From the NCBI RefSeq assembly GCF_016918765.2, contig NZ_CP092104.1, forward strand, positions 1,674,001 through 1,738,000: 64,000 nt of DNA. Reading direction: 5' to 3'. This DNA comes from Flagellatimonas centrodinii. GTDB lineage: Bacteria; Pseudomonadota; Gammaproteobacteria; Nevskiales; Nevskiaceae. Under the pieces are notes generated by a model that was not told where the DNA came from, made no database searches, and saw only the letters and a list, made by a program, of their open reading frames with translations. Below are positions 2,734 through 26,075 of this stretch, in pieces. How positions within the stretch are numbered: the stretch's first letter is position 1; the number at the start of each line of letters is the position of its first letter. The position numbers and the translations under genes are program-made.

Positions 2734-5079
2734 ATGCGGATTCCCAATTGCGCTGCAGCGCTGGCCGTGCTGTTGAGCTGCGCGATGATCTCGGGCTGTG
2801 GTGACAGCGAGCGACCACTGGTGTCGCCAGCGGGCCATGGCGGCGAAGGCGGCGGTGTTGGGGCGGCTCCGATCATTGAGGTGCTGTCGAACCGTGCCGA
2901 CATGATCAGTGGCGGTGACGCCCTGGTGGCCATCCGCGCGGCCGATGGCGCCTCGCTGCAGGGTCTCCGGGTCGGCCTCAATGGCGAGGACGTGACCGAT
3001 CGCTTCGTGCCCCTCGCCGAGGGTGGGGTGATGGGGCGGGTGGACACCCTCAACATCGGCGACAACACCGTGACCGCCAGTACCGGCGGTGACCAGCGCC
3101 AGGCATTGATCCACAACTACCCCAACCAGGGGCCGATCTTCTCGCGTCCGGAGATCAAGCGGATCCGCTGCCAGGAGGGTGCGGTCGACCTGTTCTGCAA
3201 CAAGCCGGCGGAATATACGTTGCTGTACCGACCCACTGCGCCGCTGGTGGATGTGACCCAGGGAATTCTCGAAGGGCTGCTTGATGAGCCGCCGGTGGTG
3301 CGCCTGGGGGCCGAGCTGCTCCCCTATGACCCGGAGAACCCGCCGGACGACGTGGCGATGACCACCACCCAGAATGGCCAGACCGTGCCCTTCATCGTGC
3401 GTCAGGAGCTGGGCTACCAGGATCGCGACCAGTACAAGATTCTCACCCTGTTCAACCCCGACCAACCGTGGGAGCCCTGGGCACCGCAACCGCAGTGGAA
3501 CGGCAAGCTGCTGATCACCCATGGGGGCAACTGTGGCGCCAAGTACACACCGGGCAGTGCGCCGCTCGATGACTATTCCGGCACCTTCGGCGACATCCCG
3601 CTGATCGAGCCCAGCTACATCTACGCCTTGGGCAAGGGCTACGCGGTGCTGTCGACCGCCCTCGCCAACACCGGGCACAACTGCGACGTCGCGCTCAATG
3701 CCGAGTCGATCATGATGGCCAAGGAACGGTTCGTCGAGCAGTACGGGCCGCTGCGCTACACCATCGGCACCGGCTGCTCCGGCGGCTCGATCGCGCAGGC
3801 CACGATCGCGAACGCCTATCCGGGTCTTTATCAGGGCCTACTGACCATGTGCGCCTATCCGGACTCGCTGTCCGCCGGGCTGCAGTTCGCCGATCTTCAC
3901 CTGATGCGCAAGTATTTCGAGGCGCCCGGTCGTTGGGCGCCCGGGGTGATCTGGAACCCGCTGCTGTGGGGGCCGGTCGAGGGGCACCTGACCCACGTCA
4001 ACGCCGTCGTCGCCGACACCGGCCTGTTCCAGGATGCGACCCGGGTGACCGGCAGTTGCGTTGGCGAGGACACCTACGACCCGGTCACCAATCCCACCGG
4101 CCAGCGCTGCGGCATCATCGAATGGTCTGCGCAGATCTTCGGCCCGCGCAGTCCCGAGGTGTGGTCGGATGTTGAAAAGCAGGTCGGCTTCGGTTTCACC
4201 GGCATCCCGCTGGGCAACACCGGCGTCCAGTACGGCCTCAATGCGCTGCGTACTGGGCTGATCACACCCGCCATGTTCGTCGATCTCAACGTCAAGATCG
4301 GCGGTCTGGATGTCGACATCCAGCCGCAGGAAGGGCGCACTCGCGCTGATCACCCGGCGGTGGGCAATGCCTATCGCAGTGGCATGATCAACATGGCGAA
4401 CAATCTCGACACGGTTGCGATCATCAATTTCGTCGGCCCCGATCCCGGCATCGCCCATGATTCGGTGCACGCCTGGTGGGTGCGTTGGCGCATCGAGCGC
4501 GAGCATGGCAGCGCCCGCAACCACGTCATGTGGGCGGGTCCGATCCCGTTACTTGGGGACCTCAAGTATGTGTATCAGGGGCTGGATGCGATGGATCGTT
4601 GGCTGGCCAATGTCGAGGCGGATCTGTCCGATACGCCGCTGGCCGACAAGATCAGCCAGAACCGGCCGGGAGACGTGCAGGATTCCTGCGCACTGATCGA
4701 CGGCCGGCGCCTGCTCGGGCAGGAGTGCATCGACCTGCTGCAGCCGCTGTACGCCTACGGCACCCCGCGGACAGTGGCTGGCGATACCGACACCGCAGAC
4801 AATTTTGATTGTGTACTGCGGCCCCTGAACCGGGACGATGACTACGGGCTGATCCCCTTCACCGACGGGCAATGGGAGCAGCTCGAAGCCCTGTTCGAGG
4901 AAGGGGTTTGTGACTATCGGGCACCGGGGATCGGCAAGCAGAAGACGGTGTCCTGGCTGACCTATGTCGACAGCAGTGGAAGTCTCATTGTCGGCGGCGA
5001 GCCCTTGCCGCCACCGCCACCCAACTCCGCAGCCGGTACGCAGTCGCCCGCGTTCGTTTACCCGGTGCGGGATCGCTGA
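2734..5079 (+). CDS. DUF6351 family secreted esterase-like lipoprotein
   Basis: The protein has 781 residues. The ATG at 2734 follows GAGGAG at 2721-2726 and gives a lipoprotein signal with lipobox ISGC (Cys22). The N-terminal part resembles the Ig-like start of DUF6351 proteins (VLSNRADMISGGDAL). A large alpha/beta-hydrolase-like region carries the nucleophile motif GTGCSGGS with Ser349. The Cys immediately before the Ser recalls the tannase/feruloyl esterase group. Two later Cys-rich stretches probably form disulfides in the periplasm or outside the cell. It likely hydrolyses an ester, but the substrate is unknown. It is transcribed alone and divergently from tetR, from its own promoter with a long leader. 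Confidence 0.75.
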   Translation: MRIPNCAAALAVLLSCAMISGCGDSERPLVSPAGHGGEGGGVGAAPIIEVLSNRADMISGGDALVAIRAADGASLQGLRVGLNGEDVTDRFVPLAEGGVMGRVDTLNIGDNTVTASTGGDQRQALIHNYPNQGPIFSRPEIKRIRCQEGAVDLFCNKPAEYTLLYRPTAPLVDVTQGILEGLLDEPPVVRLGAELLPYDPENPPDDVAMTTTQNGQTVPFIVRQELGYQDRDQYKILTLFNPDQPWEPWAPQPQWNGKLLITHGGNCGAKYTPGSAPLDDYSGTFGDIPLIEPSYIYALGKGYAVLSTALANTGHNCDVALNAESIMMAKERFVEQYGPLRYTIGTGCSGGSIAQATIANAYPGLYQGLLTMCAYPDSLSAGLQFADLHLMRKYFEAPGRWAPGVIWNPLLWGPVEGHLTHVNAVVADTGLFQDATRVTGSCVGEDTYDPVTNPTGQRCGIIEWSAQIFGPRSPEVWSDVEKQVGFGFTGIPLGNTGVQYGLNALRTGLITPAMFVDLNVKIGGLDVDIQPQEGRTRADHPAVGNAYRSGMINMANNLDTVAIINFVGPDPGIAHDSVHAWWVRWRIEREHGSARNHVMWAGPIPLLGDLKYVYQGLDAMDRWLANVEADLSDTPLADKISQNRPGDVQDSCALIDGRRLLGQECIDLLQPLYAYGTPRTVAGDTDTADNFDCVLRPLNRDDDYGLIPFTDGQWEQLEALFEEGVCDYRAPGIGKQKTVSWLTYVDSSGSLIVGGEPLPPPPPNSAAGTQSPAFVYPVRDR

Positions 5080-5090
5080 GGCCGCAGGTT

Positions 5091-5125
5091 GCCCGGGCCG
5101 CACACGCCAGGTGGCCGGCCCGGGC
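5091..5125. terminator. GC-rich hairpin after the DUF6351 gene
   Basis: GCCCGGGCC at 5091-5099 pairs with GGCCCGGGC at 5117-5125 around a 17-base loop. It begins 12 bases after the stop codon and lies between converging transcripts (the esterase gene and the tRNA). No T-run follows, so it is at best a weak intrinsic terminator. Confidence 0.35.
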
Positions 5126-5183
5126 GGGCTGCATCCGCACCCATGGCATGGTGCAGCGCGCATGTTCGGCCCGGCGATGCGAA

Positions 5184-5260
<77 letters not shown>

Positions 5261-5270
5261 GCGGCGGGCG

Positions 5271-5276
5271 AGTTTA
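5271..5276 (-). promoter_or_regulatory. -10-like element upstream of the CAU tRNA
   Basis: On the minus strand TAAACT ends 10 bases before the mature tRNA 5' end, the usual position for a stable-RNA promoter. No convincing -35 hexamer is visible. Confidence 0.35.
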
Positions 5277-5388
5277 CGCAATCACATCCCTTGGCGGTAT
5301 CGACAGCGGGTGACGGGTGCGCGGCCAGTCCCGGCATTGGTGGCGCAGTGTTATCTTGCCATCAATCAATGACAAGAAAGAGGGTCGC

Positions 5389-6234
5389 ATGAAATCGTTC
5401 CGCAACAAGGTCGCCGCCATCACCGGCGCCGGCTCGGGTATTGGCCGTGCCCTCGCCCTGCAACTGGCCGGTCAGGGGTGTGCGCTGGCGCTGTCGGATG
5501 TCAACGCCGAAGGCTTGGCGGAAACGGTGTCGGCGGCCCGCGCCAAAGGCGTAGCGGTCACTGATGCCGTGGTCGATGTGGCGCAGCGACAGCAGGTCTA
5601 CGATTGGGCCGACGCCAGCGTTCAAGCGCACGGCGGCGTGAATCTGGTCTTCAACAATGCCGGTGTCGCATTGGGTGCGCCGATCTCCGGGATGTCCGAG
5701 GAAGATCTGAAATGGATCATGGACATCAACTTCTGGGGTGTGGTCTACGGCACCCAGGCCTTCCTGCCGCACCTGAAGGCATCGGGCGATGGCCATGTCA
5801 TCAACATCTCCAGTGTATTCGGCATCGCCGCGATTCCCTCGCAGTCGGCCTACAACGCGTCCAAATTCGCCGTGCGCGGGTTTACCGAAGCATTACGGCA
5901 GGAGCTGGAAATCGAAGGCGCGCCAGTGTCCGCCACCACCGTGCACCCCGGCGGCATCAAGACCAACATCGCCCGTTCGGCGCGATTCTCCGGTCAGATG
6001 AAGGATTTCCTCGGCGTCGACGAGGCTGCTGGGAAGACGAGCTTCGAGCGCCTCTTCATCACCACGGCTGACAAGGCAGCATCGGTGATACTCGCGGCAG
6101 TGAAAGGCAACCGACGGCGGGTGCTGATCGGACCCGACGCGCGCGCCATTGACCTGATGGTGCGACTGATGCCGGAGCGTTATCAGCAGGTGGTGAGCTT
6201 CGCCAGCAAGCAGCAGAAGCGGTTGGCACGATAG
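5389..6234 (+). CDS. Short-chain dehydrogenase/reductase
   Basis: A 281-residue classical SDR. TGAGSGIG at 12-19 is the Rossmann dinucleotide motif, NNAG follows in the middle of the fold, and the catalytic Ser (NISS) with YNASK supplies the Tyr and Lys. The start at 5389 follows an AAAGAGGG ribosome site. A C-terminal extension of about 50 residues after the core resembles the acetoin-reductase-like and CmtB-type group. It probably oxidises or reduces a secondary alcohol or ketone with NAD(P); the substrate is unknown. It converges with the merR gene 18 bp downstream. Confidence 0.9.
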   Translation: MKSFRNKVAAITGAGSGIGRALALQLAGQGCALALSDVNAEGLAETVSAARAKGVAVTDAVVDVAQRQQVYDWADASVQAHGGVNLVFNNAGVALGAPISGMSEEDLKWIMDINFWGVVYGTQAFLPHLKASGDGHVINISSVFGIAAIPSQSAYNASKFAVRGFTEALRQELEIEGAPVSATTVHPGGIKTNIARSARFSGQMKDFLGVDEAAGKTSFERLFITTADKAASVILAAVKGNRRRVLIGPDARAIDLMVRLMPERYQQVVSFASKQQKRLAR

Positions 6235-6252
6235 ACCGAAGGCCGGCGCGAA

Positions 6253-7101
6253 TCAGCCGGGATCGTCGACAGGCGTTTCCCGGCGTTCCAGCTCGTCGAG
6301 CACGTGAGCGAGGCGGTCTCCGAGGTGTCGGGTGGCGGCAATCTCCATCGCTCGGGCCACTTCGGCATGGACTGCCATCTCCACCAGTGGGCGCAGTCGC
6401 CAGATCAGTTCCCCTAGCTGCGGCGCCTCATCGCGGGGCGGCAGACCGGTACCGAACTTGTCGAAAACGTGCTGTTCCACCAGCCGTACCATGTCTTCGG
6501 CGGCCTGCTCGACGTTGCCGCGCAGGGCTTTCACCACATCGAGCATCTGGTCGAGTGGAATGCCGGCCTTCACCAGCTCGGCACCGGCTTGCACCATGCG
6601 GGCGCTGGGGGCGAGGAAGCGTGCGCCATCGGGCTTGAGCACGCCGAGCTCGTTGGCCTTGACCATCCAGCGCGGATCGAAGCTGCCACCGAACAGCTTG
6701 ACCAACTCCACCAGCGAGAAGTGTTTTGGCGTCTCATCGGTCCACGGGCTTGAGACGGCCGACTCGAGGCCCAGCAGGGCGCCGATGTCCTGGCCGCCCT
6801 CCCAGGCTTCCAGCAATTCGCCGATGCTCGACAGCGTATAGCCGCGGGTCAGCATCTGGCCGATGATGCGCAATCGGGACAGGTGTTCGGCGCCGTAGAC
6901 GCCAGTACGGCCCCGCCGTTCCGGCGGCGGGATCAGCCCGCGATCCTGATAGGCGCGCACGTTGCGAACAGTGGTTTTGGCTGCCTGCGCCAGTTCATCG
7001 ATGGTGTATTCGCTGGCCGCGCGCGCGCTACCGGCGCCGCCGGTGGAGGCGGCATCGTCGCTGCGACGGCGGGTGCTGCGGCTGCGTCGTGTGAGGGCCA
7101 T
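6253..7101 (-). CDS. MerR family transcriptional regulator
   Basis: A 282-residue protein. An Arg/Ser-rich tail of about 30 residues precedes the MerR winged helix (YTIDELAQAAKTTVRNVRAY, then the QDRGLIPPPERRGRTGVY wing, up to about residue 98). The remaining 180 residues form an Ala/Leu/Glu-rich helical effector domain with no Cys cluster, so this is not a classic metal sensor. It is divergent from the hydroxychromene-carboxylate isomerase-like gene with a 117-bp gap. That gap holds TATCCT at 7186-7191 and an 11-bp palindrome ATCCTCAGGAT at 7187-7197, which could serve this regulator. Its ligand is unknown. Confidence 0.88.
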   Translation of the reverse strand: MALTRRSRSTRRRSDDAASTGGAGSARAASEYTIDELAQAAKTTVRNVRAYQDRGLIPPPERRGRTGVYGAEHLSRLRIIGQMLTRGYTLSSIGELLEAWEGGQDIGALLGLESAVSSPWTDETPKHFSLVELVKLFGGSFDPRWMVKANELGVLKPDGARFLAPSARMVQAGAELVKAGIPLDQMLDVVKALRGNVEQAAEDMVRLVEQHVFDKFGTGLPPRDEAPQLGELIWRLRPLVEMAVHAEVARAMEIAATRHLGDRLAHVLDELERRETPVDDPG

Positions 7102-18207: not shown

Positions 18208-19467
18208 TCAGCTGGCGTCGCTGACGCGAATTGCCAGCAGGGCTTTCGAGCGCCGCCACACCTCGCCGGTAATGGCGAGGGTGGCGGCGCCGCCCAGGAT
18301 CACCGAGGGCACGGCACCCATCAGTTTCGCCGCCAGACCCGATTCAAAGGCGCCAATCTCGTTGGAGGCGCTGATGAAGACGCTGTTCACCGCCTGCACC
18401 CGACCGCGCAAGGCATCCGGCGTATACACCTGCAGCAGGGTATTGCGCACCACCACGCTGACCGAATCAAAGGCGCCGGTGGCGAACAGTGCGAAGGCCG
18501 ACAGCCAGAAGTGCGTCGACACCGCGAACACCAGCGTGGCCGCGCCGAAGCCGGCGCAGGCGATCAGCAGATTGCGCCAGGCGTGGTAGGTCGGCGTGAA
18601 GCGCGTGCACACCAGGATCGTCAGGATGGCGCCCACCGCCGGTGCGGCACGAAGAATGCCGAGGCCAGCCGGACCGGTGTCGAGAATCTCCTCGGCAAAC
18701 ATCGGCAGTATCGCCACCACCCCGCCGAACAGCACGCAGAACAGGTCCAGGCTCAGCGCATACAGAATCACCGGTGTCTGCCGCACAAAGCGCAGCCCCT
18801 CGGCGACGCTGCGCAACACCGGCTCCGCCGGTTGGCTGCTGGCCGCGACCGGGCGCGGCTTGAGTTTCCAGGTCATGCCGATGGCCGCCAGCATGAGCAC
18901 GGTGACACCGGCCAGCGTGGCCGTCAGACCGAACCCCGCATAGAGCAGACCGCCCAGAGCCGGCCCCAGCACGGCGCCGCTCTGCCAGGCGGTGCCCGAC
19001 CAGGCCGAGGCATTGGGGTAGAGCGCACGCGGCACCACGAAGGCGCGCAGGGCACTGGCGGCGGGCGAGAACAGACCACGGGCGAACCCGAGAATCATCA
19101 GGCAGCCGTAGATGCCGGTCAGCCACCCGGCCTCGCCCAGCACCGCGTGCATGTCGGGGCGCATCAGCAGTAGCAGCACCACCGATACCGCCACCATCAC
19201 CCAGAGTGCCTGCCGCATCAGGCCGCGCTTGTCGCGCAGGTCGGCCAGGTGCCCCCCGAACAGCGCCAGCGTGATGAAGGGGATCGCTTCAGCCAAGCCG
19301 ACAAGGCCCAGCACCAGCGGGTCACGGGTGATCTGGTACAACGCCCAGCCGACCGCCACGTTCTGGATCTGGATCGCCGAGGTCAGCAGGAACGACAGGC
19401 CGCAGAGCGCGCGAAACTCGCCATGCCGCAGGGCGGCGAAAGCATCCGCGGGCGACGAGGCACTCAC
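18208..19467 (-). CDS. MFS transporter (EntS/MFS_3-like)
   Basis: A 419-residue major-facilitator protein with about 12 transmembrane helices. The motif [16 protein letters not shown] after helix 2 is the MFS loop signature. The overall pattern ([46 protein letters not shown]) resembles the enterobactin exporter EntS group. The GTG start at 19467 overlaps the prfC stop by 4 bases, so translation is probably coupled to prfC. The substrate is unknown and no siderophore genes are nearby. It converges with the glycine-zipper lipoprotein 12 bp away. Confidence 0.9.
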
Positions 19468-21053
19468 GCCGAGAAGTTCTGTTCGCGCGTGTCGGAAAAA
19501 TGAACCTCAGGGAACCGTTCGCGCGCCATGCTCAGATTGACCGACGAGGACGCCAGATAGACCAGGGCGCCGTGGTGGTCCATCGCCAGGCGCTGCTCGT
19601 TTTTGTCCTTGAAGTCGTTCCACTTGCGGGCATCCTGGCAATCGACCCAGCGCGCGCTGTGCACCTGCACCGGCTCAAAGATGCACTCGACGTTGTACTC
19701 GTCGCGCAAGCGGTATTGCACCACCTCAAACTGCAGCACACCGACCGCGCCCAGGATGATGTCGTTGTTGGTCAGCGGGCGATAGACCTGGGTGGCGCCT
19801 TCCTCGCAGAGCTGGTCCAGCCCCTTGTTGAGTGCCTTGGCCTTGAGCGGGTCCTTGAGGATGACCCGGCGGAACAGGTCGGGCGCAAAGTTGGGGATGC
19901 CGGTGAACCGGATGGCCTCGCCCTCGGAAAACGAATCGCCGATCGAGATGGTGCCGTGATTGTGCAGGCCGATGATGTCGCCGGGCCAGGCGGTCTGGAC
20001 CGACTCCCGCTCCGAGGCCATGAAAGTCAGCGCCTGGGAGATGCGCACCGGGCCCTTGAGCCGTACCGAATGCAGACTCATGCCCTCGCGGTAGACCCCT
20101 GAGCAGACGCGCAGGAAAGCCACCCGATCACGGTGCCGTGGGTCCATGTTTGCCTGGATCTTGAACACGAATCCGGAGAAGGTCGATTCGTCCGCGGCCA
20201 CCGGACGTGATTCGGCTTCGCGGCCCTGCGGCGGCGGTGCCCAGTCGGTGAAACCATTGAGTAGTTCGCGCACACCGAAATTGTTGATGCCCGAGCCGAA
20301 GAACACCGGCGTCAATTCGCCGCGACGATACGCCTCAAGATCAAACCCGTCGCCTGCCATCTGTACCAGTTCGATCTCCTCCAGCATTTGCTGATAGGGG
20401 CGGCCGAACCGCTCGGCGAGGCCAGGCGCATGCAGGCCTTCGACGGTCTCGATGTCGGAAACTCTGTGTTTGTCGCCGGTGTACAGGTAGAAGCGATCTT
20501 CCAGCAGGTGGTAGACGCCCTTGAACTCGCGCCCCATGCCGATTGGCCAGGTCACCGGTGTGCAGCGGATGTTCAGTACCTTCTCCACTTCGTCCAGCAG
20601 TTCCAGTGGTGGTCGGCCCTCGCGGTCGAGCTTGTTGACGAAGGTGATGATGGGGGTGGTGCGCAGGCGGCAGACCTCCATCAACTTGATCGTCCGCGCC
20701 TCCACGCCCTTGGCCGCGTCGATCACCATCAGCGCCGAGTCCACCGCCGTCAGCGTGCGATAGGTGTCCTCGGAAAAGTCTTCGTGCCCGGGCGTGTCGA
20801 GCAGATTGACGATCTTGCCGTTGTAGGGAAACTGCATCACCGAGGTGGTGATGGAGATGCCGCGCTGTTGTTCCAGCGCCATCCAGTCGGAGGTGGCGTG
20901 ACGGTCAGCTTTCCGGCCTTTCACTGACCCGGCCAGGCGGATTGCGCCGCCGAACAGCAGCAGTTTCTCGGTCAGCGTGGTCTTGCCGGCGTCGGGGTGC
21001 GAAATGATGGCGAACGTGCGCCGCAACGCCGCCTGGCGGGCAACTTCTGACAT
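19464..21053 (-). CDS. prfC: Peptide chain release factor 3
   Basis: A 529-residue translational GTPase that removes RF1/RF2 from the ribosome after termination. The G1 motif is [15 protein letters not shown]3 is [14 protein letters not shown] and G4 is NKLDRE. The domain order and the RF3-specific stretches ([40 protein letters not shown]) are complete and the length matches the family. The stop overlaps the start of the MFS gene by 4 bases. The VOC gene ends 52 bp upstream on the same strand. Confidence 0.97.
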
Positions 21054-21104
21054 GGGTCGGGTCTCGGGATTAGCCGCCGATTGTAGCGGGTCGGGGTCCG
21101 TTGA

Positions 21105-21527
21105 TCAGTCCGCAGCGGCCCACGCCGGATTCCAGGCCACTTCCCACAGATGTTGGTCGGGGTCCAGAAAGTAGCCGGCATAACCACCCCAGAAGGTCTC
21201 CTGGCCCGGCTTCACCACCGTGCCACCGGCCGCTTCGGCCTGCGCCAGCACGGCATCCACCGTCGCGCGACTGTCGACGTTGTGCGCCAGACTGAAGCCG
21301 GACGGACCCGGCGGCGCCAGCGTCAGCCCCGAATCATGCGCCAGGCTGGCGCGCGGCCAGAGGCCCAGCTTCAGGCCAGGCTGCAGTTCGAAGAACACCA
21401 CCGCGCCCTGGTGGAACTCCTGACCGATGACGCCCTCGGTGGGCAGGCCGAGGCCATCGCGATAGAAGCGGAGGGCCCGTTCCAGGTTATCGACGGCCAG
21501 CGTAATCAGGGACAGATGCGCTTTCAT
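21105..21527 (-). CDS. VOC (glyoxalase/bleomycin-resistance/dioxygenase) family protein
   Basis: A 140-residue single-domain VOC protein. The N-terminal half-module (LSLITLAVDNLERALRFYRD) and the C-terminal FLDPDQHLWEVAWNP are typical of the glyoxalase-like fold, in which paired beta-alpha-beta-beta-beta units form a metal site. A His in the second half (DPDQHLWEV) and a Glu at its end are candidate ligands. It could be a lyase, a dioxygenase-like enzyme or a resistance protein. Only one base separates it from the stop of the halohydrin dehalogenase-like gene upstream, so the two form one operon. A role in handling the epoxide or haloalcohol product is an attractive but unproved inference. 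Confidence 0.85.
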   Translation of the reverse strand: MKAHLSLITLAVDNLERALRFYRDGLGLPTEGVIGQEFHQGAVVFFELQPGLKLGLWPRASLAHDSGLTLAPPGPSGFSLAHNVDSRATVDAVLAQAEAAGGTVVKPGQETFWGGYAGYFLDPDQHLWEVAWNPAWAAAD

Positions 21528-21528
21528 C

Positions 21529-22212
21529 TCAACGCGCCACCCAGCCACCGCACAGGGGGAACACCTGACCGACGAAGCAGTTGGCCGTGGGGCCGCAGAG
21601 ATAGGCGACGAAGGCGGCATCCTCCGCCGCCGTCACCAATCGCCCCAGCGGCACCTCGCGACGCAGTCGGTCCTGAAACCGCGGATTGGATTGCACGTCG
21701 GCCGGGAAATAGGTCGGATTGTCGACGAAATTCTGGGCGATCAGGTTGAACTGGATGTTGTCGGCGGCCAACTCGACGCCCGCTGACTGCACATAGGCCA
21801 GCTGTGCACCGCGGGCGGCGCTGTAGGTGGAGGTGCCCTTCATGCCGCGCAACGCCGAGGCACTGCCCATGACGATGATCTTGCCCCCGCCCTGGGCGCG
21901 CATGGCCGGCACGACCGCCCGTACCAGTCGTGGCAGCGGGTGCACCAACACCTCAAAGACCTGCTGCCACTCGGCTTCGCGCACGTCGGCGGCAGGGGTC
22001 CGCGGTGCCGGCAGGGCCAGGTTGGCGATCAGCACATCCACATCTCCCGCTTCGGCGACGACAGCCGCTGCGGCGGACGGCGCGGCCAACTCGCGGACAT
22101 CGGCGATGACCTCGGCGCCCTGCAGACGGAGGGTGTCGACCAGCGCCGGGCCCATGAAGACATCGGCCTGAGTGACCAGGATGCGGCGGCCTGACAGCGG
22201 GAGAGCGCTCAT
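21529..22212 (-). CDS. Probable halohydrin dehalogenase (SDR-related)
   Basis: A 227-residue protein on an SDR scaffold that lacks the TGxxxGxG cofactor motif. In its place is VTQADVFMG, which fits the halohydrin dehalogenase signature T-X4-F-X-G exactly (T14, F19, G21). The catalytic signature S-X12-Y-X3-R is also exact (S117, Y130, R134); classical SDRs have Lys where this has Arg. The NNAG motif is replaced by IANLALP, as expected where a halide pocket replaces the nicotinamide site. NPTYFP and VGQVFPLCGG resemble HheC-type enzymes. Such enzymes convert vicinal haloalcohols to epoxides and halide without a cofactor. The ATG at 22212 is preferred; another possible start is 24 bases upstream. 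Activity is inferred. Confidence 0.82.
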   Translation of the reverse strand: MSALPLSGRRILVTQADVFMGPALVDTLRLQGAEVIADVRELAAPSAAAAVVAEAGDVDVLIANLALPAPRTPAADVREAEWQQVFEVLVHPLPRLVRAVVPAMRAQGGGKIIVMGSASALRGMKGTSTYSAARGAQLAYVQSAGVELAADNIQFNLIAQNFVDNPTYFPADVQSNPRFQDRLRREVPLGRLVTAAEDAAFVAYLCGPTANCFVGQVFPLCGGWVAR

Positions 22213-22271
22213 GACGAAGACCGGTGTTGGCGACACCCCATGCTACCCAATGCCGCCGCCAACCGGCAGGG

Positions 22272-22886
22272 TCAGGGATTGATGAGCACCACCACGGCGA
22301 TCACCAGCAGCAGTGCGCCGGCGACGCGGTCGAGGCGACGGCGGCCTACGGGATCGTCGAAAAAGGCACGGGCGCGGCCCGCCAGCCAGGCATAGCCAAG
22401 TTTGACCCCCCCAACCACGCCGGTGGCCACCAGCATGATGATGACGGCGTCGCGCAACGTGATCGTTGGAAGATCGACGAAGGCAGGGAACAGACCAAGG
22501 TAGAAGAGGATGGCCTTGGGGTCGCCGAGGGTGAGGGTGAAACCCGCCAGCACGCTACCGCTCTGCGACGCCGGTACCGACGACTCTCGCGCTTCGGACG
22601 TCGCCGGCTGGCGCATCAATGTGAGGCCGAGCCACAGCAGATAGGCGGCACTGCCGTAGCGCACCAGCTCAAACAGCGTGCCCAGCGCCTCGGCCGCCAC
22701 TCGCAGGCTGAGAATCGCCACCACGATGAAGAAGATGTCGGCGGCGATGATGCCCAGGGTCATCAGCGCGCCGTGACGAAACCCGGCGCTGGCGGCGCGG
22801 GCGACCACCGCGATGTCACTGGGGCCGGGAACCACCGCCAGCACCAGCAGTGTTCCGATCAAGGCAAGGAGGCTGTGCGTGGTCAT
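22272..22886 (-). CDS. LysE family translocator
   Basis: A 204-residue inner-membrane protein with about six helices. The N-terminal signature LVLAVVPGPSDIAVVARAASAGFRHGALMTLGI matches the LysE/RhtB amino-acid exporters, and GFTLTLGDPKAILFYLGLFPAFVD in the middle is the second conserved block. It probably exports an amino acid or related small solute; specificity is unknown. The SMR gene lies 5 bp upstream on the same strand, so the pair is co-transcribed. Confidence 0.93.
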   Translation of the reverse strand: MTTHSLLALIGTLLVLAVVPGPSDIAVVARAASAGFRHGALMTLGIIAADIFFIVVAILSLRVAAEALGTLFELVRYGSAAYLLWLGLTLMRQPATSEARESSVPASQSGSVLAGFTLTLGDPKAILFYLGLFPAFVDLPTITLRDAVIIMLVATGVVGGVKLGYAWLAGRARAFFDDPVGRRRLDRVAGALLLVIAVVVLINP

Positions 22887-22891
22887 CAGGA

Positions 22892-23224
22892 TCAGTGCGG
22901 AACGCTGTCGGAAAATACGTTGAGCACGACGACTCCGGCGACGATCAGACCGATCCCGGCGACCGCGGCGGCATCGAGGGCCTGCCCCAGAAACAGCCAG
23001 CCGATGACCGCGATCAACGCCACCCCGGCGCCGGCCCAGATGGCGTAGGCAATGCCCACCGGCACTTCGCGCAGCGCCAGTGACAGGCAGTAGAAGGCCA
23101 CCACATAGCCGCCGATCACGGCCAGAGACGGCCACAGCCGGGTGAAGCCCTCGGAGGCCTTGAGAAAGCTGGTGCCGAACACCTCGGCCACGATGGCGGC
23201 GGACAACAACATCCATTTCGTCAC
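22892..23224 (-). CDS. SMR family multidrug efflux protein (EmrE-like)
   Basis: A 110-residue protein with four transmembrane helices. The key Glu14 lies in the first helix within IVAEVFGTSFLKASEGF, the proton- and substrate-binding residue of EmrE/QacE transporters. The family signature LALREVPVGIAYAIWAGAG follows in helix 2-3. It probably exchanges protons for cationic drugs or quaternary compounds. It is the first gene of the pair with lysE, and 128 bp separate it from hvfC downstream of the next unit. Confidence 0.94.
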   Translation of the reverse strand: MTKWMLLSAAIVAEVFGTSFLKASEGFTRLWPSLAVIGGYVVAFYCLSLALREVPVGIAYAIWAGAGVALIAVIGWLFLGQALDAAAVAGIGLIVAGVVVLNVFSDSVPH

Positions 23225-23318
23225 GTTGGACTCCCGGTCGACCGTACGCCCGGAAAGCGGGGCGCGGTCGAAGCCTATCCCAGTGCGGGTTTGCCGGGGG
23301 ACTCGGGTGTCAGGTCAG

Positions 23319-23338
23319 CCGGCGTCACGCGACGCCGG
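23319..23338. terminator. Hairpin downstream of the hvf operon
   Basis: CCGGCGTC at 23319-23326 pairs perfectly with GACGCCGG at 23331-23338 around a 4-base loop. It starts 15 bases after the hvfC stop on the minus strand. No clear U-tract follows, so termination may be partial or factor-aided. Confidence 0.4.
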
Positions 23339-23352
23339 GTGAGAAGGACCCC

Positions 23353-24111
23353 TCAGCGTCGGGTGCCGAGCAGGATGTCGCGCGCGCGCAACCCGTTGAG
23401 CGTGTCTGCGCCGCTGGCGACCACCGCTGCCGGGTCCGGGTGCTGCAGCTCCAGAGCGATCTGCTGCAGGGCGTCGCGGCCGCAGGGCGGGGTTTCGCTG
23501 CCGAAATATTCAAGCAGACGCAGGGTGACCGGGTTGACCTCCATGAAGCGGACCTCGTCACCGCGGGTTCTGTAGACCACCAGGCAGGTCGGGGCATCGG
23601 GTGGTGTGTCGGGCAGGTGGTCGGGGCTGATGCGGTGGACCGGCCAGCGGTAGGCCAGCGGCCAGGCCAGTGGCGACACGGCAGGAATGCCATCGAGAAG
23701 ATTGCCGTTGGGGTCGGCCAGCTCCGGCGTCAGTTCCGCCGGGTCCACGGCCAGCGCCAGCTCCGCCCACTCGTAGTGCGCCAGTTCAGGCATCCACGGC
23801 GGCAGGCCCGGAATGTCGCCCTGCAACCAGTCGACAAAGGCGCTGGCGACCCCGTGTAGCTGCGGGTCGTGACAGGGGTGCCGGGCATAGAAGGTCCGCA
23901 CCCGGGCGTGCCAGTCGGCGTCGTCGCTCAGCTGACGGATCACCGGGAACGCGTTGGCCAGAAAGCCCTCGATGTTGTTGTAGAACAGATCGCGGTAGAT
24001 CTGCAGGCGCCGATCCTCGATCCCTGCCGGCGCTGGCGTCTGTTGTGGGTCGCGCAGGTGTGCGGCGAAGGCGTACTGCAGCGCCTGGGTGGCGGGCAGG
24101 GTGAGGCTCAT
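23353..24111 (-). CDS. hvfC: HvfC/BufC-type RiPP maturation partner (DUF2063)
   Basis: A 252-residue protein with the DUF2063 putative DNA-binding/partner domain at the N-terminus (LQYAFAAHLRD, RRLQIYRDLFYNNIEGFLANAFPV) and a C-terminal extension (FMEVNPVTLRLLEYFG). In bufferin/HvfA systems this protein pairs with the iron-dependent DUF692 enzyme HvfB and presents the leader of the precursor peptide. Its ATG overlaps the hvfB stop by 4 bases (ATGA), a sign of coupled translation and a stoichiometric complex. It is the last gene of the hvf operon. Confidence 0.92.
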   Translation of the reverse strand: MSLTLPATQALQYAFAAHLRDPQQTPAPAGIEDRRLQIYRDLFYNNIEGFLANAFPVIRQLSDDADWHARVRTFYARHPCHDPQLHGVASAFVDWLQGDIPGLPPWMPELAHYEWAELALAVDPAELTPELADPNGNLLDGIPAVSPLAWPLAYRWPVHRISPDHLPDTPPDAPTCLVVYRTRGDEVRFMEVNPVTLRLLEYFGSETPPCGRDALQQIALELQHPDPAAVVASGADTLNGLRARDILLGTRR

Positions 24112-24980
24112 GCGCGGATCGACGCCGCGGGCTCGACCGCAGCCTGGCGCCGACGGATCTCGCCCAGTTCGATGCGCAGGGCGGCCAGGGGGGGGATGTT
24201 GAAGTCGCGTTCGAGCAGGGTCGGCACCGGGCCGAGTCGGGTGTAAGCGTGGCTCAGCAACGACCACACCGGATCACTGACATCACTGCCGTGGGTGTCA
24301 ACGCGCAGGTCTTCCGCCTCTTCGTAGTGACCGGCCACGTGCAGGTAGCGCACCCGCTCGGCAGGCAGGGCATCAATGAACGTTATCGGGTCATAGCGGT
24401 GGTTGATGCTGTTGACAATGACATTGTTGACGTCGAGCAGCAGATCGCAGTCTGCCCGATCGATGACGGCCCGGATAAATTCGGGCTCACTCAGCTCGGT
24501 GGCGAGTGGCGTGTAATAGCTGGCGTTTTCCAGCGCGATGCGACGTTGCAGGATGTCCTGCACGCGGCGCACACGGTCGGCGACATAGTCGACTGCCGCC
24601 TCGGTGAAGGGAATGGGCATCAGGTCATACAGATGCGCATCATCGGAACACCAGGTGAGATGTTCCGTGTAGTCGGCGATACCGTGGCTATCGAGAAAGC
24701 GGCCGAGGTCGCGGACGAAGGTTTCGTCCAGTGGGGCCGGGCTGCCGATCGATAGCGACAGACCATGGGTGACGAACGGGAATCGCTCGGTGAACGACCG
24801 GAACTGGCGGCCGAGACGCCCGCCGATGTGCATCCAGTTCTCCGGCGCGACTTCCAGAAAGCCGATGTCACCCGGTTGCTGTCCCGGACCCTGGTCGGCG
24901 AGCGGGCCCAGCAGGGCCCGTCGCAGACCGAGGCCGGAACCGCGGACATGGGGCGTGACATGCGTCATGCCGTGCGCCAT
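24108..24980 (-). CDS. hvfB: HvfB/BufB-type MNIO oxidative RiPP maturase (DUF692)
   Basis: A 290-residue TIM-barrel enzyme of the multinuclear non-heme iron oxidative family. FLEVAPENWMHIGG, THGLSLSIGS, YTEHLTWCSD, ALENASYY, LLLDVNNVIVNSINH, HVAGHYEE and DTHGSDVSDPVW supply the His, Asp, Asn and Glu residues expected to bind two or three irons. In characterised relatives it converts Cys residues of the precursor to oxazolone/thioamide groups that bind copper. Start codons at 24980 (MAHGM) or 24968 (MTHV) are both possible. It lies 22 bp downstream of its Cys-rich substrate gene hvfA. Confidence 0.94.
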   Translation of the reverse strand: MAHGMTHVTPHVRGSGLGLRRALLGPLADQGPGQQPGDIGFLEVAPENWMHIGGRLGRQFRSFTERFPFVTHGLSLSIGSPAPLDETFVRDLGRFLDSHGIADYTEHLTWCSDDAHLYDLMPIPFTEAAVDYVADRVRRVQDILQRRIALENASYYTPLATELSEPEFIRAVIDRADCDLLLDVNNVIVNSINHRYDPITFIDALPAERVRYLHVAGHYEEAEDLRVDTHGSDVSDPVWSLLSHAYTRLGPVPTLLERDFNIPPLAALRIELGEIRRRQAAVEPAASIRA

Positions 24981-25002
24981 GTCCGCAGGCTCGGACAGTG
25001 GC

Positions 25003-25314
25003 TTACTTCTTTTCGCCACACTTGGCTTCACCGCACTTGGCTTCACCGGCCTTGTCTTCGCCGCACTTGGCTTCGCCACACTTGGCTTCACCGCACTTGG
25101 CTTCACCGGCCTTGTCTTCACCGCACTTGGCTTCGCCGCATTTTGCTTCGCCGCACTTGTGCTCGCCGGCCTTGTGGTCACCCAATGAGGCGACCATGTA
25201 GCCGCTGCCGAGGTCGGTGGTCTGGAACACGGAGGCCTGTGCGCCCATGGCGCCAAGGGCGAAAGCGGCGCCGAGTGCCAGCGCGATCGGCTTGCGGGAC
25301 GGGGTCTTGTTCAT
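25003..25314 (-). CDS. hvfA: HvfA-like Cys-rich RiPP precursor (copper-binding metallophore type)
   Basis: A 103-residue precursor. A signal peptide (RKPIALALGAAFALGAMGAQA) directs it to the periplasm. After a short spacer (VFQTTDLGSGYMVASLGDH) the core consists of 11 pentapeptide units of the KCGEx type, ending in KK. Eight units contain Cys; units 1, 5 and 9 have Ala instead (KAGEx), giving blocks of 3, 3 and 2 Cys. Related bufferins and HvfA proteins have EGKCG repeats whose Cys are modified by HvfB/HvfC and sequester copper. The order hvfX-hvfA-hvfB-hvfC on one strand supports the call. A modified product is inferred. Confidence 0.93.
   Translation of the reverse strand: MNKTPSRKPIALALGAAFALGAMGAQASVFQTTDLGSGYMVASLGDHKAGEHKCGEAKCGEAKCGEDKAGEAKCGEAKCGEAKCGEDKAGEAKCGEAKCGEKK
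25009..25173 (-). repeat. Coding tandem repeat of hvfA (15-bp units in a 60-bp super-repeat)
   Basis: Eleven 15-bp units encode KCGEx/KAGEx. Every fourth unit, starting with the first, carries Ala instead of Cys, so the DNA repeats with a 60-bp period over about 2.8 copies. The copies are nearly identical, with a few silent changes. Confidence 0.9.
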
Positions 25315-25356
25315 GGTTACATCTCCAGGTTGATGGCCCGGTCGGGCCAGGTTGAA

Positions 25357-25989
25357 TCAGTCATTACTACGGGACATCGGAAGATTTGGACGCGGCGGGG
25401 CGATCCAGCGCCCCAGCCAGTGGTCAAGGCTCAGCCAACGGCCGGCCCCGGTGAAGAACAGTGACAGCAGCATGATGAAATAGGTTGCGGCGAATTCGAT
25501 ACCGTTGTTGAGCATTACCAGATTGCCGTGTTCGGTCAGCCAGCGGTAGTTGCCGTGGTCGCGCAGCAGCTCGCGGGCCACGTCCAGCCGTTCGACAGCA
25601 GCCTGGGTGCGCTCGGTGGCGAACAGCCCCTGGCCTTCCGCGATTGCCAGCCAGCCGTTATCCCAGTGGACTGCAAAGGCGGCCACCAGCATGGTTACCA
25701 TCAACGGAACCGCGATCAGCCGCACCCCCAGACCCAGCAACAACAGCACCGCCCCACCCAGCTCGGCGGCGGTGGCCAGTGCCGCCATCAGCCAGGGCAG
25801 TGGCAGGCCCAGGCCCCAGTCGGGGTTGCCGAACCATTCCACCGTGCTGTCGAAGCTATTGAACTTGTTCATGCCGGCCATCCAGAACACCGGCGCCAGG
25901 TACAGCCGCAACAGCAGCGGAGCCAGAAAATCGATGGCGCGGCTGCGATCGAGCGTGGCGGCGGTGAAGCGGGTAAGGGAGGCGATCAT
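25357..25989 (-). CDS. hvfX: HvfX-type DoxX membrane protein of the RiPP cluster
   Basis: A 210-residue DoxX-family membrane protein. Four hydrophobic segments are visible: LLLRLYLAPVFWMAG, WLMAALATAAELGGAVLLLLGLG, LIAVPLMVTMLVAAFAVHW and FAATYFIMLLSLFFTGAG. GMNKFNSFDSTVEWFGNPDWG after the first is typical of HvfX/DoxX members linked to copper-responsive RiPP operons. It is the first gene of the operon, 42 bp before hvfA. It may handle redox state or export of the modified peptide; its function is not established. The intergenic 86 bp to the divergent araC gene must hold the operon promoter. Confidence 0.88.
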   Translation of the reverse strand: MIASLTRFTAATLDRSRAIDFLAPLLLRLYLAPVFWMAGMNKFNSFDSTVEWFGNPDWGLGLPLPWLMAALATAAELGGAVLLLLGLGVRLIAVPLMVTMLVAAFAVHWDNGWLAIAEGQGLFATERTQAAVERLDVARELLRDHGNYRWLTEHGNLVMLNNGIEFAATYFIMLLSLFFTGAGRWLSLDHWLGRWIAPPRPNLPMSRSND

Positions 25990-26075
25990 GGTTGTCGGTG
26001 TCGGATTCAAGAATTTGATGAGCAGCATGCTAGCCTTGCGCTCGTCTCATTCCTGCGGCCCGGAATCCGGTCTCC

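Follow-up and report, generated by a model that had tools for sequence, protein, structure and literature searches.

A very probable halohydrin dehalogenase gene nearest to the D types, and a neighbouring VOC gene that is not a general partner of the family

A closely spaced gene pair in the genome of Flagellatimonas centrodinii raises two questions: whether an SDR-like protein of 227 residues (P0001) is a halohydrin dehalogenase (HHDH), and whether the VOC gene beside it (product P0002) tells what such an enzyme is for. The original prediction had answered both in the affirmative, reading the pair as an operon for a halogenated or epoxide metabolite. The window analysed here is the whole stretch of 64,000 nucleotides in which the pair lies. 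On its minus strand the gene order is SMR, LysE, HHDH, VOC and putative prfC, with the following features:

22892..23224 (minus strand): SMR (small multidrug resistance) transporter gene, by Pfam, 5 bp upstream of the LysE gene; conserved flank of the site
22272..22886 (minus strand): LysE-type exporter gene, by Pfam, 59 bp upstream of the HHDH gene; absent at this site in two congeners
21529..22212 (minus strand): probable HHDH gene (P0001, 227 aa), nearest to the D types, by translation, PDB sequence matches, identities, tree and fold
22150..22173 (minus strand): motif 1, T14-x4-F19-x-G21, nucleophile pocket replacing the SDR nucleotide-binding motif, as defined in the motif section of PMC4989007
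21811..21864 (minus strand): motif 2, S117-x12-Y130-x3-R134, catalytic triad, as defined in the same section of PMC4989007
21105..21527 (minus strand): VOC / glyoxalase-superfamily gene (P0002, 140 aa), by Pfam and translation, downstream of the HHDH gene
19464..21053 (minus strand): 529-aa gene, read as prfC from its sequence, 94% and 95% identical in two congeners; conserved downstream flank

The strand of the pair had not been given before. The tight spacing described in the original prediction was found as claimed, base 21528 being the sole spacer between the HHDH stop and the VOC ATG, and 51 bp separate the VOC stop from putative prfC. No promoter-like site was found in 20900-23500, and the terminator-like patterns in this interval, 3 against 1.3 expected, carried no weight in the analysis. 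Elsewhere in the window, genes for a DoxX protein, a 103-aa protein, an MbnB/TglH/ChrH-type RiPP enzyme and a DUF2063 protein stand in a row (23353-26028, minus strand), which we take to be a bufferin-like metal-binding RiPP cluster; the 103-aa protein has no Pfam match and carries repeated AKCGE/DKAGE units.

The two motifs on which the original prediction relied were both exact on re-checking, and the motif 1 residues agree with the T-x4-F/Y-x-G form given for HHDHs in the relevant parts of two publications (PMC4989007, section 5; PMC11976700). The glycine-rich SDR motif is absent, as had been stated, and NNAG is replaced by A63-N-L-A. Where classical SDRs have T-G/A-x3-G/A-x-G, P0001 has T14-QADVFMG, and in place of Y-x3-K it has Y130-SAA-R134. 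Both motifs, with F or Y accepted in motif 1, were present in 147 of 149 distinct homologous loci, the window counted; of the two others, L062 is cut by a contig end and L250 is without the stretch that would hold motif 1. Seven SDR paralogues of the same genome were looked at as a control, five of which were in a usable frame (L003 was in the wrong frame and L004 was not recovered). Motif 2 occurred in 0 of these 5, and all 5 had a TG- or SG-type motif together with YxxxK. One paralogue, L002, has a chance match to motif 1, which by itself is therefore no specific marker; judged from these sequences, the pair of motifs is in excess of chance.

Searching PDB sequences with P0001 placed HheD2 first (7b73, E 3.7e-86), followed by 8xxb (7.4e-85) and then HheB (1.2e-49), and the first ketoacyl reductase (3e-19) came below further dehalogenase entries. 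In pairwise comparisons, P0001 was 61% identical to HheD2 (133/219), 60% to HheD8 (135/225) and 42% to HheB (93/219), with the motif and triad residues aligned in all three and F19 corresponding to Y in HheB. Within its own genome, 27 places matched P0001 at E up to 0.001, itself included, and the next by E-value was 29% identical. We find it scarcely credible that P0001 is an ordinary SDR oxidoreductase resembling HHDHs by chance. Pfam names it only SDR-like (adh_short_C2, adh_short), and the best 25 of 183 NCBIfam matches lie far below their cut-offs, none of them named dehalogenase; however, there was no HHDH model among the Pfam matches or the listed NCBIfam matches, so that this output could not have named an HHDH. 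Against an ordinary SDR stand the missing glycine-rich motif, the Y-x3-R in place of Y-x3-K, the 60% identity to two crystallised HHDHs and a clean split in the trees.

Two trees were built, and both separate HHDHs from SDRs, the split being supported at 100/99 in the second (25 HHDH and 10 SDR rows). The second tree contained no enzyme of type E, F or G, and it omitted the SDR row L003, which in the first tree had been an ORF in the wrong frame on a very long branch. The order of the D and B rows differs between the two. In the first tree, P0001, HheD2 and 8xxb belong to a D group that excludes HheB (92/72, not starred), and in the second, to which intermediate sequences were added, HheB and the intermediates nest among D-type rows while P0001 lies outside the fork holding HheD2 (91/98, not starred). 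HheB forms a long branch in these trees. Nine HHDHs of one family (f177, L164-L172) are 47-57% identical to P0001; the seven of them included in a tree group with HheB (99/99) and are possibly D/B intermediates.

The AlphaFold model of P0001 has a mean pLDDT of 85.5 and a pTM of 0.86, with low confidence at residues 221-227. A Foldseek search with this model returned HheD2, HheD8 and HheB in its first nine rows. The VIA Z score of the model was 31.2 to HheD2 (221 aligned residues, 2.4 A) and 29.8 to both HheD8 and HheB; no SDR-type entry among the 50 matches listed exceeded 26.3. An enzyme of the A/C side, 6a41, scored 25.7, level with the SDRs, and no HheA or HheC entry was among the best 50 fold matches listed. 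Because SDR folds are all similar, it is this ranking that counts and not the fold match itself. With motifs, closest solved relatives, trees and predicted fold in agreement, the family assignment of the original prediction is upheld, and P0001 is very probably an HHDH of an already known type, that is, an enzyme for the cofactor-free making and opening of epoxides. Its identities to HheD2 and HheD8 fall within the 57-95% to proven D enzymes that a section of the 2016 review gives for HheD19-38 (PMC4989007). We therefore call it D type by identity, with the reservation that the borders of D differ between our two trees. The kind itself is not new, since the D types have been known since 2014 and subtypes A to G have been described; the 2014 date for subtypes D-G is as given in the part of the review on subtypes (PMC4989007).

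The surroundings of the gene suggest how it arrived. In both congeners (G001 and G002), SMR matches (71% and 69%) are found near prfC; the sequence separating the two is a different one, and the LysE-HHDH-VOC block is missing. Neither of the 2 congeners had an HHDH gene, and their best LysE matches (48% and 43% identical) are located elsewhere. The block was either gained locally here or lost in both congeners, and we prefer a gain because the distribution of HHDH genes is patchy. Acquisition would then have been by transfer. As the GC content of the block (66-68%) is similar to that of its surroundings, the case for transfer comes entirely from gene order and the patchy distribution. A plasmid source found no support: among 72,556 plasmid records searched at the protein level (E up to 1e-25), a single match to the HHDH appeared, of 45.5% identity, on a Novosphingobium plasmid.

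Of 60 other relatives, 5 had an HHDH homologue, as did at least 3 of 397 other genomes of a phylum sample and at least 4 of 368 of a class sample, compared with at least 57 of 399 genomes of family f10 and 21 of 36 of family f177. The phylum, class and f10 counts are lower bounds, about seven candidates per genome having been scored. The genome-collection scan kept at least 80 loci, of at least 108, encoding relatives at 58-73% identity. Overall, the gene is distributed patchily, and in some families it is common. The rarity in genome surveys asserted by the original prediction is borne out by the phylum and class samples but not by the two families, which corrects the impression of uniform rarity.

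In order to assess the VOC neighbour, 163 loci were combined and 14 duplicates removed, leaving the 149 distinct loci with 1496 neighbouring genes. The first neighbourhood run kept only HHDH matches above 150 bits, so SDR paralogues were left out. Gene order was taken from our own codon-bias gene finder and no established caller; gene starts may be wrong, and spacings therefore vary by a few bases between analyses. A VOC profile built for this analysis detected 16 VOC genes among the neighbours at E below 1e-3; weaker likely or possible VOCs in L244 (E 0.0044) and L217 (E 0.21), neither of them adjacent, were left uncounted. VOC genes occupied 4 of 289 adjacent slots and 12 of 1207 other slots (Fisher one-sided P 0.37), and with the window left out 3 of 287 adjacent slots (P 0.57). 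The adjacent frequency is that of the background, and the claim of a fixed, informative partner gene across the family was rejected. Among the 149 loci, this genome is the only one with a P0002-type VOC beside an HHDH; tblastn of P0002 against the 163 loci (E up to 1e-3) found, beyond the window, only partial, weak and non-adjacent matches in L076 and L230. Neighbourhoods are very diverse, the widest neighbour cluster within four genes being, at the clustering applied, a mixed SDR group in 11 of 149 loci. The VOC is not a general partner of HHDHs.

The four loci with an adjacent VOC are the window, L010, L011 and L147, and all four VOCs were confirmed by Pfam. They differ in kind: P0002 lies downstream of its HHDH, L010 has a 123-aa VOC upstream, and L011 and L147 have one common arrangement with a GloA-like VOC upstream. 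All four belong to one FastTree clade of nine loci that includes the window (support 93; the window, L009, L010, L011, L025, L031, L062, L147 and L202); for L025 and L062, truncated at contig ends, no gene is visible upstream. With 4 of 9 loci inside this clade and none of the 140 outside it, Fisher P is 6e-6, or 1e-4 without the window, in a post hoc test that counts loci and not events. Because related loci were counted as independent and the VOC kinds are mixed, we treat the pattern in this clade as a lead. It might mean that different kinds of VOC were repeatedly placed beside an HHDH, as a recurrent pair converting a halohydrin to an epoxide and then opening it; we regard this as improbable, and if it were true it would supply a natural role for that HHDH branch.

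For the window itself, the corresponding idea is a dedicated two-step pathway, in which the HHDH would convert a haloalcohol to an epoxide and the VOC protein would open the epoxide or conjugate it with a thiol, as FosA does. FosA-type VOC enzymes conjugate the epoxide of fosfomycin with a thiol, and both GloA and FosA have a metal ligand near the start of the first strand. Pfam finds a Glyoxalase domain in P0002, whose best solved relative, 3bqx ('glyoxalase-related enzyme', E 4.8e-20), is only a distant one. The one-base spacing speaks for such a pathway, as do the matches of P0002 to FosA models, weak as they are (best 28.4 bits, cut-off 300), the adjacent VOCs of the clade in their three arrangements, and the first tree, which joined the window to L009, L010 and L097 (the L147 gene) at 99/98. 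Against it, there is no enrichment across the family, the clade test is post hoc and its VOCs are of three different kinds, with L011 and L147 amounting to one arrangement, and the second tree has no starred branch joining the window to L009-L011/L147. At the position where the first strand begins, P0002 and four homologues have no histidine in common (H4 is found in P0002 alone, and one homologue row has an unread residue at that position), and homologues of P0002 occur in both congeners without an HHDH, the best matches there being 66% and 40% identical with no HHDH nearby. Eight HHDH genomes were searched for P0002-like VOCs; three had one (one match being partial), again with no HHDH in the surrounding stretches. 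We consider the two-step pathway rather unlikely. The VOC gene may be co-transcribed with the HHDH gene, yet need not share its pathway.

Other HHDH loci have neighbours of quite different kinds. In L014, L027, L034 and L059, the HHDH gene is directly followed by an HMG-CoA-lyase-like gene and preceded by one for a methylcrotonyl-CoA-carboxylase-like biotin subunit, a setting of leucine degradation (Pfam scan in L059 only). A small ORF lies between carboxylase and HHDH in L014, L027 and L034, and in L059 (Dechloromonas sp. SSD3, 3985-6684, plus strand) the two form one ORF of 899 aa, joined at the carboxylase C-terminus. In L166 (8359-9620, plus strand) and L169 (7778-9100, plus strand), genes for nitrile hydratase beta, its N and C parts encoded separately, and alpha (CTLCSC) come after a D/B-intermediate HHDH, and a class III aminotransferase gene lies upstream; the Pfam scan covered all four genes in L166 and alpha in L169, and the sister locus L165 has no nitrile hydratase. 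Epoxide opening by cyanide followed by nitrile hydration would fit these two loci, and among the papers listed by a search of the open-access literature we recognised none describing an HHDH-nitrile hydratase cluster. An alpha/beta hydrolase gene, epoxide-hydrolase-like by reading, lies 14-29 bp upstream of the HHDH gene in Halopseudomonas aestusnigri, Pseudomonas abyssi, Halopseudomonas oceani and Pseudomonas neustonica (L060, L075, L077 and L080; Pfam Abhydrolase_1 in L077, the sole one scanned). A luciferase-like monooxygenase gene adjoins the HHDH gene in L167, L168, L172 and L152 (67% identity to P0001), with Pfam scans in L152 and L167.

Such settings raise the thought that relatives of P0001 share a normal metabolic task that is not xenobiotic, for example in acyl-CoA or nitrile metabolism. 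The four carboxylase and HMG-CoA-lyase loci and the two nitrile hydratase loci favour it, but at the clustering applied no neighbour family within four genes goes beyond 11 of 149 loci and the window's own setting has none of these genes, and for P0001 we hold it very unlikely. That HHDHs have no common gene partner across the 149 loci argues against reading the role from any single neighbour, and the role of HHDHs may be better approached from the carboxylase fusion and the nitrile hydratase neighbours than from the VOC pair.

The reading we prefer, and consider highly likely, is that of a D-nearest HHDH with cofactor-free catalysis by homology, gained locally together with the LysE exporter and VOC genes between the conserved SMR transporter gene and prfC, and most likely serving to detoxify haloalcohols and epoxides or to use them. 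In the mechanism expected from homology, Ser117 would hold a vicinal haloalcohol and Tyr130, whose pKa Arg134 would lower, would deprotonate it; the resulting alkoxide would displace the neighbouring halide to form the epoxide, and the halide would leave through the pocket lined by T14, F19 and G21, with no NAD(P) used. In the reverse direction, halide, azide, cyanide or nitrite could open the epoxide. This catalysis, which we infer for P0001, follows the Ser-Tyr-Arg mechanism set out with the two motifs and subtypes A to G in parts of the 2016 review (PMC4989007). A detoxification role is probable and agrees with the exporter genes nearby and with a patchy block that was apparently gained. 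The presumed role of HHDHs is given as haloalcohol detoxification and degradation in a passage of PMC11536340. The review notes, in its passage on the matter, that only two of the HHDH genes then known shared an operon with an epoxide hydrolase, which leaves room for other physiological functions (PMC4989007). Being of a known type and with a VOC that is no general partner, P0001 adds one member to the family and not a clear clue to its natural role.

Among characterised systems, most of the 26 further HHDH sequences then identified were of A or D type, according to the same part of the review (PMC4989007), and the closest to P0001 is HheD2 (7b73), from another gammaproteobacterium as stated in a section of PMC5892878: it shares 61% of 219 residues, including the six of the motifs, and is the best predicted-fold match. 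HheD8 (8xxb, a triple mutant with chloride) is 60% identical over 225 residues, again with six of six motif residues the same. It is nearly identical to the protein of locus L082 in Thauera aminoaromatica S2, whose neighbours differ from those in the window and include no adjacent VOC; that genome has a P0002-like VOC with no HHDH in the surrounding stretch. HheB of Corynebacterium sp. N-1074 (4zd6) shares the catalytic triad and the length of 227 residues with P0001 at 42% identity, has Tyr for Phe19 in motif 1, and forms a long separate branch that lies outside the D rows in the first tree and among them in the second.
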